A stretch of DNA of 64,000 nucleotides, from positions 62,001-126,000 of the forward strand of contig DUQH01000003.1 of NCBI GenBank assembly GCA_012837895.1, in the 5' to 3' direction. A program made the position numbers and the translations under genes. Below the pieces are notes generated by a model, which was not told where the DNA came from, searched no databases, and saw only the letters and a list, made by a program, of their open reading frames with translations. Below, one piece after another: positions 262 through 57,661 of this stretch. This DNA comes from Candidatus Fermentithermobacillaceae bacterium (GTDB lineage: Bacteria > Bacillota > Sulfobacillia > Fermentithermobacillales > Fermentithermobacillaceae). Each line of letters begins with the position of its first letter. The stretch's first letter is position 1.

Positions 262-273
262 CTATTTGTGATC

Positions 274-886
274 ACCTCTTTGAGGGTAGTACCTGTGATA
301 AATCTTGTGACTTAAGGTCCAGCAGGATTTCCCGCAGGCCAACCCGGGCTTACGCCCAAGGCGGTTCCCCTTTAAGTCCTGCCTGTTCTGTCGCCAGGAA
401 CAGCGCTGGATCGCCACTTAGTTCACACCGTAATCCCACAGATACCCCCGTGAGAGACAGTCTAGGAGTTTTCCTCAGAGATCTGCCTTTCCTAGCTTCT
501 TTTGCAACCGGATTTTCAGGAAAACATCCATCCCATCCAGCCACTCAAAGCAGGCCCTTCTCCTAACGAGAATCTACCTGTGAAGACATGATAACCCGTT
601 CCTCCGGGATAACCCGTTAACCCGGGTTAGACCGTTCATCCGGGTCCAACCTTTCATCCGGGTTAAACCGTTCATCCAGGCTATACTGCCTTCCCGAAAA
701 AAGGGCAGCTTTTGGTACTCGTCACCTGCATGCCATTGCAGGCCTCCCTTTTTTCCTCTTCCCTGCCCAGACCGAACGCTGGGCGCATCCGGCCCCTGAC
801 AAGGCGATTCAGGTAAGGCCATGACGGATTTTTAGCCCCGCCCTGGGAACGCAGAATCTACTAGAATACTGTACCCTCAAAGAGGT
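274..886. repeat. 15-bp perfect inverted repeat bounding about 600 bp
   Basis: ACCTCTTTGAGGGTA at 274-288 is the exact reverse complement of 872-886. The arms enclose a gene-free stretch containing the 18-bp tandem repeats. This could be the ends of a small non-autonomous element or a duplicated ribosome-site segment. I see no target-site duplication next to the arms. The left arm overlaps the ribosome site of the membrane protein gene starting at 261. Confidence 0.55.
591..680. repeat. Five tandem 18-bp repeats
   Basis: Five consecutive units begin at 591, 609, 627, 645 and 663, with consensus close to WTAAACCGTTCATCCGGG. Units differ at two to six positions, and the period is exactly 18 bp throughout. 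The minus strand has an open frame across it that would give a six-residue repeat, but there is no ribosome site and no recognisable protein, so I treat it as a minisatellite. Confidence 0.75.
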
Positions 887-1008
887 CGCAGCAACAACTA
901 TACAAAATCCCAGCGTAAGTGTCAAATCACCCATTCACCGGATGCCGTTGGCCGCCGGGTCCGCCGGCCCGCGATACCATCACCCATGAGTGTTGTGATA
1001 GTGGAAAT

Positions 1009-1131
1009 GGCGCACCACGTGCACCGATTCTTCGGATTTCAGGCACCTCTGCAGCCAAAACGGTGCACCACGTGTACCAATCTTCGGGATTCCGCGCGCT
1101 CCTACGCATGAAATGGTGCACCAGATGCACC
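1009..1131. repeat. Three 17-bp dyads at 53-bp spacing
   Basis: Three related imperfect dyads start at 1009, 1062 and 1115: GGCGCACCACGTGCACC, GGTGCACCACGTGTACC and GGTGCACCAGATGCACC. Each has 7-bp arms with one mismatch around a 3-bp centre. Downstream of the first two is a related CTTCGG-containing segment, and the rest of each 53-bp unit has diverged. 53 bp is about five helical turns, which would suit an operator array or a structured repeat. Confidence 0.65.
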
Positions 1132-1135
1132 AATG

Positions 1136-1734: not shown

Positions 1735-2753
1735 CTGCCTCGCCAAGTGGACAATCAATACGTACACAGTGACCTTCGAATCAAGTGGCGGCAGTACCGT
1801 ACCCAGCCAAACCGTCCCGTATAACGCAGTCGCAACCGAGCCTCCGGCCCCAACAAGAACGAACTACACATTCCAAGGCTGGTATTCGGACAGCGGATTA
1901 TCCACGGAGTTCGACTTCTCGACCCCATAACGGAGGATATAACCCTCTATGCCAAGTGGCAGCGCAAACCCGCTTCTCAACAACCCAAGACCATAACGGT
2001 GACAGAAGTATCCAGCAGCCTGTTCGCCGGAAGTCAAGGAGAAGTAAACGCCAACGCTGATATGGATGACACTTTTTCAAGCTCGGTGGAGGTGAAGATC
2101 TCCGACACGCAGGAGGACGTAGCACGCTTCGGCTTTGCTGCTGGCGCCGAAGTCTACCCCTTTGGTATTTCCCTCTACATAAGTGGTACAAGCCAAAAGA
2201 CGAAGCCTGCACCAGGCTATTCAGTAACCATCTCCCTGCCAGTGCCTGAACATCTCTTGGATGTGAAGGAGCTAATCTCCGTCGTGCACAAGTCTGAAAG
2301 CGGTGTCGTGACAACCATTCCCTCCAGACTTGAGCAGAAAAACGGGATATGGCTCATCACGTTCGAAGCGACTGAGTTTTCACCGTACGCACTGGTAGTA
2401 AGGAGTGCCGGAACCGCAGCAACCGCGGGAAACTACGACGAGTCGGCAGGCGTTCCGTACTATATCAACACAGAAGGAGCAGAGCATTCATCGGCTTTGC
2501 CGCAAAGGGAAGATACATCGCTCCCCAGGGCGTAAGCGTGAATGTGATGCAGAACGACAAGAGCTTTGCCGATATCTCCGGGCACTGGGCACAAGTCTAC
2601 GTGGGCTTTGTAACCGAACGGGAGGTCTTCCTGGGGACAAGCGGCAACACCTTCTCCCCGGATGCCGGCATGACCCGCGGCATGTTCCCCACTGTCGTAG
2701 GACGGTTTTACGAGACATGCCCGTTTGTGGAGCAATACCGGAGGGTCTTGTAA
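1735..2753 (+). pseudogene. Decayed surface protein: InlB B-repeat plus SLH domain
   Basis: Three pieces in different frames form one protein remnant. The first (to 1930) begins at the end of a repeat (AKW) and holds most of one InlB B-type repeat (TVTFESSGGSTVPSQTV, then TFQGWY). A one-base loss in the CCCC run near 1925 moves the frame, after which ITEDITLYAKW completes the repeat. A linker of about 180 residues follows to about 2480. A second one-base loss near 2484 leads to FIGFAAKGRYIAPQG and a clear S-layer homology domain (FADISGHWAQ, FSPDAGMTRG). The tail after 2712 no longer resembles the family. There is no signal peptide or credible start, so the 5' end is also missing. In a live copy the SLH domain would tether the protein to the cell wall. 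Confidence 0.7.
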
Positions 2754-3008
2754 GACAGGCCCGGGTGCCCTATATAGCTGTTGCGTCTGTCGTATCGAAC
2801 CCCCTGCAAGCCTGTTCAGCAATCTGCCATTTGGACTTCCAAGACGCCAGTGTGGAATCAGATGCAGAATACATAGGCATTGTTGTAAGCACAACACACT
2901 GAAAGAGACTGTGCAGACTCTCGTAATTGCTCATGGCTCCGAAGGAGAAACTGCCGAACTGGGCGAACGATCCAAGTGTTCCTACACTAACCATGGAGGC
3001 TGTTTCGT

Positions 3009-3807
3009 TTGGAGTATTTCATATTCGCTGACGAGAGTGGCACGCATACTGGTTCCAAGTGCTATGGTATAGGGGCTCTTTGTATTTCTGAAAGCCAACT
3101 CGAGGAATTGGTTGAGTTCGTAACCACGGTCAAGGCAGAATATCGGCTGGACGAAGAGATTAAGTGGACTAGGATTCGCAAGTACAAGGCCGCAATTGAA
3201 GTGGCATTGCGTATCGTTGATTACGTTCTAGATACACGCTTGCCCACACATCATCGTAATCAAGAAGGACGTATACCGCAAGTGGTCGTTCGACACCGAG
3301 GAAGCGTTTTACGCCACCTATTGGGAGTTGCTTAGTCGTTTAGTCCAACGATTAGGCGGGACGTCGTATTGGGTCGTGCTCGACAATCGATCCGACGCAT
3401 ACGACAAACGGCATGAGGTGCTTCATATCATCACCAATCGCTATCTAACCAAAGTGGACGAACAGGCGAGATTGCTTAACGTAGAAAAGGCTGATTCGAG
3501 CTTGTTGTTGCCTCTCCAGTGTGTGGACCTATTGACCGGAGCTGTGACATCAAGTACCAATTGTTACCTGGATCCCTCTGCTGCCCTTAATCCTGGAAAG
3601 GTACAAATCATTCAGCACTTTTCGCACCGACTTGGATGGGACTCTCTGGCCTACGACACATATCCTAACGCAACATTCAACATCTGGCATTTCCCGAAGG
3701 AGTTTCGAGCCGATCCAGGCTCTCGAAACGTTAGATTGAGAAACCCTAGAGCTTCGCTTCGGTCTACCAAGGAGGGTCACTCCCGGACCCGGAGTACGGA
3801 CTCCTAG
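3009..3807 (+). pseudogene. DUF3800 protein, frameshifted
   Basis: The N-terminal half begins at TTG 3009 behind a GGAGG site and carries the DUF3800 signature start (FIFADESGTHTG). It goes off frame near 3240-3250. The +1 frame then continues with IIVIKKDVYRKWSFDTEEA and runs to 3807, including the family's usual C-terminal region (LLLPLQCVDLLTG, FNIWHFPKEF). One base change would restore a protein of about 265 residues, close to the usual length. DUF3800 proteins have an RNase H-like fold and are often found in mobile or defence settings, but their role is not established. Surrounding decay suggests a true pseudogene rather than a sequencing error. Confidence 0.7.
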
Positions 3808-6031: not shown

Positions 6032-7316
6032 TTGAGCTTGGCACCTCCTCACCGGTGGTTTCTTCAACACGGCAAACAAGGGAACCCTTGTACAAGTTGA
6101 CGAGTACCTGGTCTCCCTCACTAACATCCGCGTAACTCCTGATAATTCTCATATCCGGAACCGACCTGGCTACGCTGTAGCCCCTGGAAAGCACGGACAG
6201 GGGGCTGAGAGTTTCAAGTTTGAGGGCAAGGGAGCCAAATCTTTGCCTGTTTGCACTCAAGAAAAAGTCCATTGCATGGGCAAGAGCTTGCTTGAGGTCC
6301 AACACCTCGTCCCCGGCTGAAGAAATGAACTTCATTGCGTCAATCAGTTGTTGTTTGAGCCTGATGAGCGTCTCGCCTGCAGACACAAGGAACCAGTCAG
6401 GCCTCTGGAGGCACGGACGGGAACTCAGGCCCTGCAAACGGGCGCGACTGTTCCTTATCTCAAGCGCAAGGCTACCGTAGGCCCTTTGAACAAGCCTTCC
6501 CACCTTGGTTTGGAGTTCCCTTGCGTTAGGCACCACCAGCTCAGCTGCGGCCGAAGGCGTAGCAGCCCTCACATCTGCCACAAGATCCGCTATGGTAACA
6601 TCCCGCTCGTGACCTACAGCCGAAACTACAGGTACCCTGGAACTATATATGGCCCGGGCCACTAGCTCGTGGTTGAATACAAACAAGTCTTCCTGGGAGC
6701 CGCCGCCCCTCCCAACGATTATCACGTCTACATCCGGCACCTGGTTGAGCAGCTTGATACCTGCGGCGATTTCCACTTCGGCACCCTCACCCTGTACCTT
6801 GGAATCTGCAACCACAAACCGGACTCCTGGGTAGCGCCGCCTGCCTACCGACACAATGTCTTTTATGGCAGCACCGCGTATTGAAGTGACCAAACCTATC
6901 TTCCTAGGGAACATGGGAAGGGGTCTCTTGCGCTCAGTAGCAAACAGCCCTTCTTTTTCAAGCTTCGCCTTGAGCTCTTCAAGCTGGGCGTACAGCGCAC
7001 CCAGCCCCGCCGGCTCCATGTACGTAGCGTATACCTGGTAAACACCGTCGCGCTCATATACAGACACGCTTCCGGCGACGATAACCTGCATACCTTCCTT
7101 GGGAACGAAAGACATGCGCATCCTGTTGCTACGCCACATAACAGCTCTTACGCTCGACTTCTCATCCTTGAGGGTAAAATAAAGGTGGCCCTGGTAATCT
7201 CTCAGGTTTGCTATCTCACCCTGGATAAACACCTGCCGCAAGAAATCGTCTTGCCAGAATAGCTTGCGGATATAGGAGTTTAGCTGGGTAACGGAGATAA
7301 CATTCCTAAGATCCAC
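6009..7316 (-). CDS. xseA: Exodeoxyribonuclease VII large subunit
   Basis: Catalytic subunit of exonuclease VII. An N-terminal OB-fold (about residues 8-100, VFIQGEIANLRDYQGHLYF) is followed by the nuclease core with GLVTSIRGAAIKDI, DVIIVGRGGGSQEDL and VVSAVGHERDVTIADLVAD, then a long coiled-coil region and the C-terminal SPLSVLSRGYSVAR block. I prefer GTG 7316 (AAGGTGG seven bases upstream) over ATG 7334, whose only ribosome-like sequence directly abuts the start. The product is 435 residues, normal for the family. Confidence 0.93.
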   Translation of the reverse strand: MDLRNVISVTQLNSYIRKLFWQDDFLRQVFIQGEIANLRDYQGHLYFTLKDEKSSVRAVMWRSNRMRMSFVPKEGMQVIVAGSVSVYERDGVYQVYATYMEPAGLGALYAQLEELKAKLEKEGLFATERKRPLPMFPRKIGLVTSIRGAAIKDIVSVGRRRYPGVRFVVADSKVQGEGAEVEIAAGIKLLNQVPDVDVIIVGRGGGSQEDLFVFNHELVARAIYSSRVPVVSAVGHERDVTIADLVADVRAATPSAAAELVVPNARELQTKVGRLVQRAYGSLALEIRNSRARLQGLSSRPCLQRPDWFLVSAGETLIRLKQQLIDAMKFISSAGDEVLDLKQALAHAMDFFLSANRQRFGSLALKLETLSPLSVLSRGYSVARSVPDMRIIRSYADVSEGDQVLVNLYKGSLVCRVEETTGEEVPSSSEFKARN

Positions 7317-28742: not shown

Positions 28743-28781
28743 GAAAAAAGGACCGAACTTCCGTGAAGTCCCTGTCCTTTT
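28743..28781 (-). terminator. Riboswitch expression-platform terminator
   Basis: On the minus strand, AAAAGGAC followed by GACTTC, an ACG loop, GAAGTT and GTCC forms an interrupted hairpin followed by TTTTTT. It begins at the end of the second glycine aptamer, sharing the AAAAGGAC segment with it, as expected for a transcription-controlling glycine switch. It lies about 80 bp before gcvT. Confidence 0.75.
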
Positions 28782-28946
28782 ACCTGAGAGATTCTCCGCT
28801 TGTGAAGCGGGTTACCCCTTTGGTGCCATTCTGAAATGGCTCTCCAGAGATGCGTCCGGCGACGGTGTTTCTGCCTGAGAGTTTCAGATGGACATCCTTG
28901 CTCCTTCGGCGCCTGCTTCCCCGCAGGACTCTCCCGGCGCCTTCAT
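28772..28946 (-). promoter_or_regulatory. Tandem glycine riboswitch
   Basis: Two glycine aptamers read on the minus strand. The first (about 28946-28862) has GGGAGAGTCC, GGCGCCGAAGGAGCAAG and TGAAACTCTCAGGCA. The second (about 28858-28772) has TGGAGAGCC, ACCAAAGGGG and AATCTCTCAGGTAAAAGGAC. These conserved segments, the order and the short linker fit the cooperative tandem glycine riboswitch found ahead of gcvT operons, where glycine binding switches transcription on. A terminator hairpin follows directly. Confidence 0.92.
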
Positions 28947-54935: not shown

Positions 54936-55433
54936 CTAATCCTGCCACCGGTCGTCTACATACAGTTCTTCGTAAGTTTTCCTGCTCCTCATTACTCCGG
55001 GTTTTGCAGGTATGCCTATAGGCAAGAGGCATACTACGCTCACATGCTCAGGAATACCCAGCAGTTCCTTTACCTTTTCTTCAGAAAAAGCCCCAATCCA
55101 ACAAGTTCCCAGTCCATGGGCCTGGGCAACAAGGGTCATGTGATCCATGGCTATTGCAACGTCAACGAAGGAATACCTCCGGCTGGGATTTGTTGCACAC
55201 CCTACGATTACCACAGGCGCTTCGCCGACAAAAGCCTGGTCGCGGCAGATGGGCACCAAGGCCTTCCTAAGAGCTTCATCTTTGACCAATATGAACTTGT
55301 ACTCCTGGCGGTTTCCCGCTGAGGGGGCAATCCTTGCTGCCTCCAGCACTGCGTTAAGAGCTTCCTCAGGCACCGGGTCGCTCTTGTAACCCCTGATGGA
55401 CCGTCTGGTCCGGACAGCTTCCATAACTTCCAC
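54936..55433 (-). CDS. Nitroreductase-family FMN protein
   Basis: A small flavin reductase of 165 residues. The FMN-binding start VMEAVRTRRSIRGY is followed by EAARIAPSAGNRQEYKFIL and a GLGTCWIGAFSEEKVKELLG block near the C-terminus. I start at GTG 55433, ten bases after GGGAGG; the frame extends to 55544 but lacks family features there. The function is probably reduction of small molecules with NAD(P)H, substrate unknown. Confidence 0.88.
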   Translation of the reverse strand: MEVMEAVRTRRSIRGYKSDPVPEEALNAVLEAARIAPSAGNRQEYKFILVKDEALRKALVPICRDQAFVGEAPVVIVGCATNPSRRYSFVDVAIAMDHMTLVAQAHGLGTCWIGAFSEEKVKELLGIPEHVSVVCLLPIGIPAKPGVMRSRKTYEELYVDDRWQD

Positions 55434-55635
55434 AGTATCACGACCTCCCTTTTGAGACTCGTTAACTCCAAAGAACATTCCATATAGCTTCTGCCATAGA
55501 CTTCTTTGGGCTGGCATAAAAACCCTTTCGCCGAGCCTGTTCATATCTCGGCTGCACCGAAGCTGACCTTTCTGGTGCTGTGTTGACCGGAACCAGAGGT
55601 TGATTTCTGGCAGCAGTCGGTCGGAAGCAAAGCGG

Positions 55636-56003
55636 TCTGGTCAATTCAGAACCAGATTTCTGTCCCAAGTGGGCGATTCCAGACCGGGTTCAGCTCGGAA
55701 CTGGACGATCCCAGACCAGTCTTGGCTGGAAAACAGGCAGAGTGGTCAATTCCAGACCGGGTTCAGCGGGGAACTGGACAATTCATGGCCACTAGGGGCT
55801 TGTAGAAAGGCAGAGTGGTCAATCCGGAGCCAGATTCCGGTAAGAAGTGGCGGATTCGAGACCACATTCAGCCAGCAACTGGACGATCCGAAACCAGTTC
55901 CTGACTGCAGGAACGTGAACTGGTCAATTCCGAGCCAGCTTCCAGCCGGAAGTAGTCAATTCCAGACCGGGTCCGGTCCGGAGCTGGAGAATTTGGAACC
56001 AGA
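55636..56003. repeat. Array of 11 hairpin-forming repeats, 32/41-bp spacing
   Basis: Eleven copies of TGG-N11-CCA (or CCG) begin at 55638, 55670, 55702, 55743, 55775, 55816, 55848, 55880, 55921, 55953 and 55985. The steps are exactly 32 or 41 bp. N11 is usually of the form (A/T)C(A/G)ATYC followed by four purine-rich bases. Flanking bases change together so that pairing is kept: TCTGG/CCAGA, ACTGG/CCAGT, GTGG/CCAC. Several 15-bp spacers also pair (GTTC/GAAC, CTTC/GAAG). Neither step is a multiple of three, so this is not a coding repeat. The function is unknown. Confidence 0.85.
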
Positions 56004-56257
56004 TGCGGGCACCACATTCCTGCAGTAAACGGGCAAAACGGGCACCCCGAGGCTTGACTTATAAAACCAGTAGGTAGACAATGAACTGAGATACAGTGCC
56101 TGGATCATGGCACTGGGATACCTGACCCCAGCGTCTTGTAGAAGCTGAGGCCAACCAGTAGGTCCTATAAAACAGCTTAGAGCACTCAATACACCATAAT
56201 AACAAGACAATCCTAAACGAAGTACCAACAACGAAACAGGATAAGGAGCGCTAACTG
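56004..56257 (+). promoter_or_regulatory. Leader of the MFS gene with promoter and hairpin
   Basis: TTGACT (56054-56059) and GACAAT (56077-56082), 17 bp apart, are a plausible promoter. Downstream is a 7-bp hairpin CAGTGCC/GGCACTG (56094-56115) with no T tract. The segment ACCAGTAGGT occurs at about 56066 and again at about 56154. The leader to the TTG start at 56258 would be about 170 nt. The hairpin or repeat could be a regulator site. Confidence 0.4.
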
Positions 56258-57661
56258 TTGAGTAAGACTGCCAAGTACATAGCTTTTACCGCCATTCTAG
56301 TTGCTTCGTTTCTCACTGTGATAAACACCAACATGATTAGGGTGGCATCCCCCCACCTGCAGGAAGCTCTAGACGTTAACTACTCGAATCTTTCATGGGT
56401 GTTAAACAGCTACCAGATCGCTTACGCAGTACTGCTTCCTGTGTTCGGGCAAATAGGTGACAAGTTCGGACGGAGACAGTGTCTTGTAGTAGGGATTGCC
56501 GTATTCGCAATAGGGGCCCTCTTAGGAGGTCTTGCCTGGGATTTTGCCTCGCTGGTCATTTTCAGGACGCTGCAAGCGGTTGGCGCCGCAGCCATTTTCC
56601 CCAACGCGCTGGTAACCGGAACTGCCCTGTTTCCCCCTGAACACAGCGGCAAAGTGATGGGGATATGGGGAATGTCAACGTCAATGGCGTCTGTGTTAGG
56701 GCCTACAGTCGGTGGGTTCATCGTCCAGTATCTGGGCTGGCAGTACATTTTCCACGTTAACGTACCTTTTGCCGTGCTATCCGGAATAGCAATTCTCCTG
56801 CTGATCAAGTCAGATTGGCGCAAACCTTCTTCCTTTCACTTTGACTACTTCGGGACTTTTGTGCTGGCAACAATGATCATTGCCCTCATCGCAGGGCTTC
56901 AGGCCGGTTCCGAAGCCGGATGGACCTCACCCCGGGCGGTGATAATGCTTGCCACCGCCTTTGTCTGCTTGCCCCTATTCAACAAGATCGAACAGAATTG
57001 CAGCGAACCTGTGATCCAGCTTGAGATGTTTCAAAACCTTTCATTCCTCTCGGCAGTGTATTGTGGCAGCACTCACCTTATCGCCATCCAGGGGATGCAG
57101 TTTCTGATGCCCATTTACTTGTCGACTGTGAAAGGGTTTGACCCTGTGAAGATTGGCCTGATACTCATGCCTCAGGCCCTTATCCGCCTTGTAGTATCTC
57201 CCATCGCCGGGTGGCTGGAAGACCGTTACGGTTCAAAGATACCTGTAGCTGCCGGGCTCATACTCCGCACCCTGGCTTTGGTGTCCCTGGGACTGCTGAC
57301 GGCATCGTCCACCAATACAGTCATAACCCTTGCGCTTCTACTTGATGGCATAGGTGCAGCATTGGTATGGTCACCCTCTCTTAACGCTGCAATCAACTCA
57401 TCGCCGAAAGAAATGGCCAGCTCTGCCACGGGGCTTTTCAACATGATCAGGCTTATTATGGCAGCTACCAGCATGGTGCTTGTCGGCTTGGCCATGGACA
57501 AGTTGTTTACGGGTATGCCCCAAAGCAGCTCAACCCCTGTCCCTGGATTCTTCCAGATATATATGGCCTTTGCAGCTGTCACTGCCCTGGGCCTTCTCAC
57601 TGTAAGATATCTTGAGGTGCGTACCCCTGAAGACGAAAGGATCAAAATCCTGCACAGGTGA
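56258..57661 (+). CDS. MFS drug-efflux type transporter (DHA2 family)
   Basis: A 467-residue membrane protein with 14 predicted helices, matching the EmrB/QacA proton-antiport drug exporters. Motif A is GQIGDKFGRRQCLVVG after helix 2, and the motif C-like GIWGMSTSMASVLGPTVGG is in helix 5. It starts at TTG 56258, with AAGGAG upstream. Its substrate is unknown. The repeat array and a structured leader lie directly upstream; no TetR or MarR regulator is adjacent. Confidence 0.9.
   Translation: MSKTAKYIAFTAILVASFLTVINTNMIRVASPHLQEALDVNYSNLSWVLNSYQIAYAVLLPVFGQIGDKFGRRQCLVVGIAVFAIGALLGGLAWDFASLVIFRTLQAVGAAAIFPNALVTGTALFPPEHSGKVMGIWGMSTSMASVLGPTVGGFIVQYLGWQYIFHVNVPFAVLSGIAILLLIKSDWRKPSSFHFDYFGTFVLATMIIALIAGLQAGSEAGWTSPRAVIMLATAFVCLPLFNKIEQNCSEPVIQLEMFQNLSFLSAVYCGSTHLIAIQGMQFLMPIYLSTVKGFDPVKIGLILMPQALIRLVVSPIAGWLEDRYGSKIPVAAGLILRTLALVSLGLLTASSTNTVITLALLLDGIGAALVWSPSLNAAINSSPKEMASSATGLFNMIRLIMAATSMVLVGLAMDKLFTGMPQSSSTPVPGFFQIYMAFAAVTALGLLTVRYLEVRTPEDERIKILHR

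Follow-up and report, generated by a model that had tools for sequence, protein, structure and literature searches.

Operators of the FadR/GntR type carry TGGT...ACCA half-sites, arranged in FadR as TGGT-N3-ACCA. The REP/BIME sequences linked to RAYT genes are short intergenic palindromes, often clustered and located mainly between tandem or convergent genes (PMC3733652). In the EDxHD class of homing endonucleases, an enzyme has been found to dimerise on a very long target (PMC3943268). Here we analysed a stretch of 64,000 nucleotides from a Candidatus Fermentithermobacillaceae bacterium (contig DUQH01000003.1), referred to as the window. It carries a phased array of dyads which, together with a nuclease gene found elsewhere in the same genome, looks like an undescribed two-part genetic element. 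The array and its surroundings are organized as follows:

54936..55544, - strand: left flanking gene, nitroreductase family, divergent (Pfam PF00881; L063:6437-7045)
55635..56004, + strand: whole array of 11 type-1 dyads, ordered as A(32)B(32)C(41), one of the repeats having two units
55638..55654, + strand: unit 1, TGGTCAATTCAGAACCA
55670..55686, + strand: unit 2, TGGGCGATTCCAGACCG
55702..55718, + strand: unit 3, TGGACGATCCCAGACCA
55743..55759, + strand: unit 4, TGGTCAATTCCAGACCG
55775..55791, + strand: unit 5, TGGACAATTCATGGCCA
55816..55832, + strand: unit 6, TGGTCAATCCGGAGCCA
55848..55864, + strand: unit 7, TGGCGGATTCGAGACCA
55880..55896, + strand: unit 8, TGGACGATCCGAAACCA
55921..55937, + strand: unit 9, TGGTCAATTCCGAGCCA
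55953..55969, + strand: unit 10, TAGTCAATTCCAGACCG, one base off
55985..56001, + strand: unit 11, TGGAGAATTTGGAACCA
56051..56115, + strand: stretch 5' of the MFS gene, just outside the array, conserved with the sister species G002 (80% identity to L326:1400-1464)
56258..57661, + strand: right flanking gene, MFS transporter (Pfam PF07690)

An earlier note on this DNA had described 11 repeat units at 55636-56003 with steps of 32/32/41/32/41/32/32/41/32/32 bp; all are present, as dyads at 55,638-56,001, and the steps are exact. The pattern it gave, TGG-N11-CCA/CCG, holds for 10 of the 11 units as TGG-N11-CC[AG], while unit 10 (55,953) reads TAG-N11-CCG. The GTTC/GAAC stretches that it took for pairing spacers fit as the outer arms of a longer dyad of ~25 bp, roughly GAAsTGGTCAA...TTGACCAsTTC. 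Counting strict units, the window array forms a chain of 9, and the longest 32/41 chain in 200 dinucleotide shuffles of the window is 2. We also considered a coding origin, given that 105 bp makes 35 codons. A protein repeat is opposed, however, by the steps of 31, 40 and 42 and by the diverged units. Annotators should be warned that the window array translates as a spurious open frame of 142 aa. Similarly, the arrays of L111 and of further JAAYXB/JACIXY loci give long spurious open frames on translation (50 similar ORFs), a trap for gene callers. Many of the arrays are found at the ends of contigs.

Searching for the repeat in the same genome and in relatives, a check that the earlier note had proposed, revealed many further arrays that it had missed. 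In the genome that contains the window (G000; 2.05 Mb, 146 contigs), a DNA search detected further arrays. A profile built from sequence alone on the 105-bp triad A(32)B(32)C(41) gave 47 matches. Arrays are carried by 4 of the 5 genomes of the Candidatus Fermentithermobacillaceae genus, with about 7-10 per species in four species. The stretches fetched from these four species contain 33 arrays and 427 units, in which the commonest steps are 32 (259 times) and 41 or 42 bp (111 times), followed by 52, 63 and 73. An array may hold up to 21 sites. The arrays are intergenic and lie mostly at orthologous places across sister species, many of them between convergent or tandem genes. Their neighbours are unrelated and include nitroreductase, MFS, the leucyl-, arginyl- and methionyl-tRNA synthetases, trigger factor, malate dehydrogenase, MreB, HydF and MeaB, among others. 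One array (L062, G000:C79, ~6400-7312) is located between a carboxypeptidase gene and leuS, and the sequence 5' of leuS at this locus resembles a T-box leader by eye.

Outside the genus, no genome of the same class has more than 3 matches of the TGG-N11-CCA pair pattern, and most genera of the class are without type-1 arrays. In a pattern scan of 85,000 genomes, arrays were found, among the matches listed, in further Bacillota MAGs. In a second Bacillota order, that of G061, the pattern is present in 9 of 13 genomes, each of which has between 2 and 188 unit pairs. The symmetrised consensus motifs differ by lineage (AaCTGGTCAAtaaTTGACCAGtT in the window genus, AGCTGGTCCCCaGGGGACCAGCT in G061/G062, AGGTGGtAAGTaACTTaCCACCT in G063 and a fourth in G064), as do the step patterns (32/41/52, 31/32 and 33/51). 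The outer letters common to the lineages partly reflect ascertainment, because the loci were chosen by the TGG-N11-CCA pattern. Some of the matches listed, from Planctomycetes, Actinomycetota, Myxococcota and Sorangium, show no unit chain by the motif used and look like chance or unrelated repeats. A viral origin was likewise discarded, as the array pattern occurs in four IMG/VR contigs, none of which has a chain of at least 4 units. Three loci of G069 (JAKPFY; L134, L307 and L318) are nearly identical to G002 loci, and this public bin is probably contaminated by a G002-like Fermentithermobacillaceae strain.

The earlier note had weighed a protein-binding array against an RNA of serial hairpins, and had regarded the changes in the outer bases as compensating. 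This compensation did not hold up: across 431 distinct units, Watson-Crick matches at mirrored positions are at or below independence (0.37 observed vs 0.43 expected at -1/+17), and the same applies to covariation between mirrored positions in 5 of the 5 lineages examined. The phased steps recur in relatives but the paired changes do not rise above independence, which argues for protein-binding dyads and not RNA hairpins. When the modal steps of 13 lineages or paralogues are compared, they group around multiples of 10.5 bp (Rayleigh R 0.85, p about 1.5e-8, mean phase 0.08 bp; p about 8e-4 without the 30-33 class). Between genomes, sites are 61% identical and spacers 36%. In aligned orthologous gene-less arrays, substitutions affect 7.1% of the TGG/CCA core vs 22% of the spacer (p 7e-9), a contrast perhaps somewhat exaggerated, the arrays having been called by motif score. 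Together, the 10.5-bp clustering and the sites kept while spacers drift give good support to the predicted helically phased protein-binding array, and the reading of the window dyads as protein-binding sites rather than RNA hairpins is well supported.

Transcription into serial RNA hairpins, as a small RNA or as REP-like RNA elements, seems to us extremely improbable. The units are inverted repeats, and the 381-nt array stretch folds somewhat better than its shuffles (z -2.7). However, the best fold does not consist of serial unit hairpins, covariation is absent in five lineages, Rfam has no match for the window array, and the DNA-helix phasing would be left unexplained. Folding the triad alignment with RNAalifold yields no more than -4.7 kcal/mol. 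Elsewhere in the window, Rfam identifies an OLE RNA at 267-893 (- strand; RF01071, 281 bits) and tandem glycine riboswitch aptamers at 28769-28946 (- strand; RF00504).

If the dyads bind a protein, this could be an ordinary transcription factor for which the arrays serve as operators of the neighbouring genes. The dyad shape fits an HTH dimer and the window array is upstream of the MFS gene, yet we judge this very unlikely: the neighbours share no function, many arrays have convergent or tandem genes on either side, as many as 21 sites occur in one array, and the conserved stretch 5' of the MFS gene persists in G002 without a type-1 array. A regulon was discarded too, as the genes flanking the arrays have no common theme. 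We see no special link to the MFS exporter, since other arrays flank unrelated housekeeping genes and the MFS locus is without a type-1 array in two sister species.

Candidate binders were drawn from the proteins encoded near arrays and compared across lineages. Besides ABC ATPases, a single family, which we call wHTH-nuclease, is found next to arrays in at least 4 lineages, and it is the likely binder of the arrays. Overall, the interpretation in the earlier note is partly supported; the probable protein partner of the array had escaped it. The wHTH-nuclease has ~267 aa, with a winged HTH at about residues 39-77 and a homing-endonuclease-like C-terminal domain at about 135-220. The latter matches phage homing endonucleases (phrog_9084 homing endonuclease, E 6e-8, plus phage tblastn hits), a match repeated in six other family members. 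Across 57 members, the active-site-like residues are conserved, D151 in 100% and E163, Q168, H169, D189 and K192 in 98%. On sequence, the C-terminal domain probably belongs with the EDxHD/Vsr-like (PD-(D/E)XK-like) homing endonucleases. The structure model is a weak one (pLDDT 61); its PDB matches are not significant, and viral predicted nucleases are matched weakly.

In G000, the gene of one member (C52:3860-4663) is followed after 35 bp by a type-1 array, and we infer that this C52 protein binds the arrays. Three more members are present in G000, at C40, at C95:171421 and, in a broken form interrupted by a stop codon, at C64 (27918-28640). At L074 (G000:C40, ~7011-7225), the paralogous gene has its own small array with core TGGTACC and steps of ~32-33. 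The family is present in 36 of the 154 genomes of the class. Members from the two orders are intermixed in its protein tree, a pattern suggestive of transfer or of old paralogy. In L245 (G151; 2668-3509), 181-bp tandem repeats adjoin a family member.

The pairing of gene and array was scored by looking for recurring gapped palindromes in 700-bp gene flanks, with z >= 3 taken as positive. A dyad array was found beside 21 of the 60 family members vs 2 of 127 control segments (Fisher p 3e-6), and one of the two positive controls is itself such an array. The motifs are phased and specific to each member: AGTGCcAACC.GGTTgGCACT every 42 bp, GCGGCGC..GCGCCGC with steps of 31/32, AAAGTGGC..GCCACTTT with steps of 53/54, and CTGGTC..GACCAG with steps of 32/32/30. 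In G006, a closed genome, there is another group of matching sites about 26 kb away from the array that adjoins the gene. Within a set made of the order of G061 and three further array-bearing or unassigned bins, the gene is present in 8 of the 10 genomes with at least 5 unit pairs vs 2 of the 5 others. In G004, a genome only 80% complete, only gene fragments were found, and its arrays are the shortest (5.7 units vs 14-15.5; p 3e-4). Some observations count against a two-part element. About two thirds of the family members had no array by this test, some of these lying at contig ends and some having degenerate arrays; no gene was detected in the array-bearing G064 and G066; and the gene-bearing G166 is without TGG-N11-CCA pairs. 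G066 (JACUUV; C32:18182 and C52:30) has perfect palindromes, TGGTTCAC.GTGAACCA, as 32-bp tandem repeats, in a genome where no wHTH-nuclease gene was detected.

The C95:171421 member is flanked by ATGGTGCACCACATGCACCAT every 53 bp, its sites being TGGTGCAC..GTGCACCA-like. A scan with this motif gave 12 sites at 52-53 bp in L062, 14 sites in L073, and 3 in the window:

1008..1132, + strand: short array of the second type, with three TGG-N13-CCA dyads (TGGTGCAC-like) and steps of exactly 53 bp; it matches the array next to the wHTH-nuclease gene G000:C95:171421-172179

The motif of a second paralogue predicts a second set of dispersed arrays, which at the sequence level is an internal replication. 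This window array lies about 115 bp from the OLE RNA. The slot that holds the type-1 array in the window is occupied in G001 (L329, G001:C50, about 2050-2470) by an array of the second type, whose steps are about 42 and 54 bp, resembling the one beside G001's own copy of the C95:171421-type gene; in G002 this slot has no array. At the meaB-merR slot, G000 has 13 units, G004 has 5, G001 has traces (about 2), and G002 and G003 have none. Arrays are thus gained, lost or exchanged at some slots, although many of them persist.

This turnover bears on the possibility that the arrays are chromosome-organising or partition-like platforms, where a domesticated wHTH protein, this or another, would coat the phased sites at conserved intergenic loci and shape the nucleoid. 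Such platforms would fit the orthologous positions across species, the selection on gene-less arrays, the unrelated housekeeping neighbours and the helical phasing. Nonetheless, we find them unlikely, as they have no need for the conserved nuclease residues, the arrays appear and vanish between sister species, this array type is missing from most genera of the class, and each paralogue has a separate array set.

We consider it probable that the window array belongs, as a satellite without a gene, to a two-part element that consists of a wHTH-nuclease gene and its cognate array and is spread by the nuclease. Our model suggests that wHTH-nuclease dimers would bind the TGG-N11-CCA dyads, and that steps of 3, 4 or 5 helical turns would place adjacent dimers on one DNA face; we propose that they would therefore bind cooperatively, bringing the nuclease domains together. 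The array would thus act as a cooperative landing platform for the wHTH-nuclease. The bound enzyme may promote breaks or recombination by which arrays expand, and break-promoted recombination could carry them to other intergenic slots, roughly in parallel to the spread of REPs driven by RAYT transposases. Homing nucleases can amplify DNA segments, as described for phage SegB, which makes array spread by a nuclease plausible (PMC13096335). A nuclease cutting its own arrays would be harmful, and we count this against the model. At the sequence level, we have established that the arrays exist and are phased, that their sites are conserved, that genes and arrays are adjacent and that motifs are specific to paralogues, while cleavage, recombination-driven spread and any host benefit are speculative.

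Because gene-less arrays are under purifying selection, selfish spread may not be their only role; they could also serve the host or act as decoys. As decoys, the arrays would restrain a dangerous nuclease as a DNA-based antidote, possibly releasing it as a defence upon phage damage to the host chromosome. The adjacency of gene and array, the far larger number of sites than a promoter needs, the selection on gene-less arrays and the conserved active site would all agree with this. However, no defence-island context was seen (PADLOC matches are weak, at HTH level), and short arrays are retained in G004, where only gene fragments were found; we hold the decoy role to be unlikely.

Extending the satellite reading beyond this locus, we lean, a little past even, towards a new class of bacterial gene-plus-array elements, in which each wHTH homing-endonuclease-type gene has its own phased cognate array and seeds gene-less intergenic satellites, with specificity, site and step co-varying between paralogues or lineages while helical phase is kept. 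In the open-access literature, we found no description of such a gene-array pair. If true, uncultured anaerobic Bacillota would have a system of repeats plus nuclease that is of neither the REP/RAYT nor the CRISPR type, and in which helical phase governs the array as a clear physical rule. It would provide many natural protein-site pairs for studying the evolution of DNA-binding specificity and cooperative spacing, and would make the spread of bacterial satellite-like arrays and the selection on gene-less arrays testable.

Compared with described systems, the array dyads share TGGT...ACCA half-sites with FadR/GntR operators, but are TGGT-N9-ACCA or wider and occur in long phased arrays. As in CRISPR, repeat arrays are tied to a nuclease gene; in contrast, the array units diverge and measure 17-25 bp, the steps are set by helical turns, there are no unique acquired spacers, and no cas genes are among the array-flanking families examined. 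EDxHD/Vsr-type homing endonucleases (I-Bth0305I and phage relatives) resemble the wHTH-nuclease in the C-terminal catalytic domain and its conserved acidic residues, whereas the wHTH-nuclease is chromosomal, present as multiple paralogues, fused to a winged HTH and adjoins arrays of intact dyads; we know of no homing endonuclease with such arrays. REP/RAYT is the nearest in logic, as there too intergenic palindromes are dispersed through a genome and linked to a gene that has copies of the repeat on its flanks. However, its defining transposase and folding palindromes are missing here, where the arrays are strictly phased, lack hairpin covariation and a GTAG/CGTC tag, and vary in motif by paralogue. 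Among 40 array-flanking proteins there is no transposase, RAYT (Y1) included, and the recurrent partner is instead the wHTH-nuclease.
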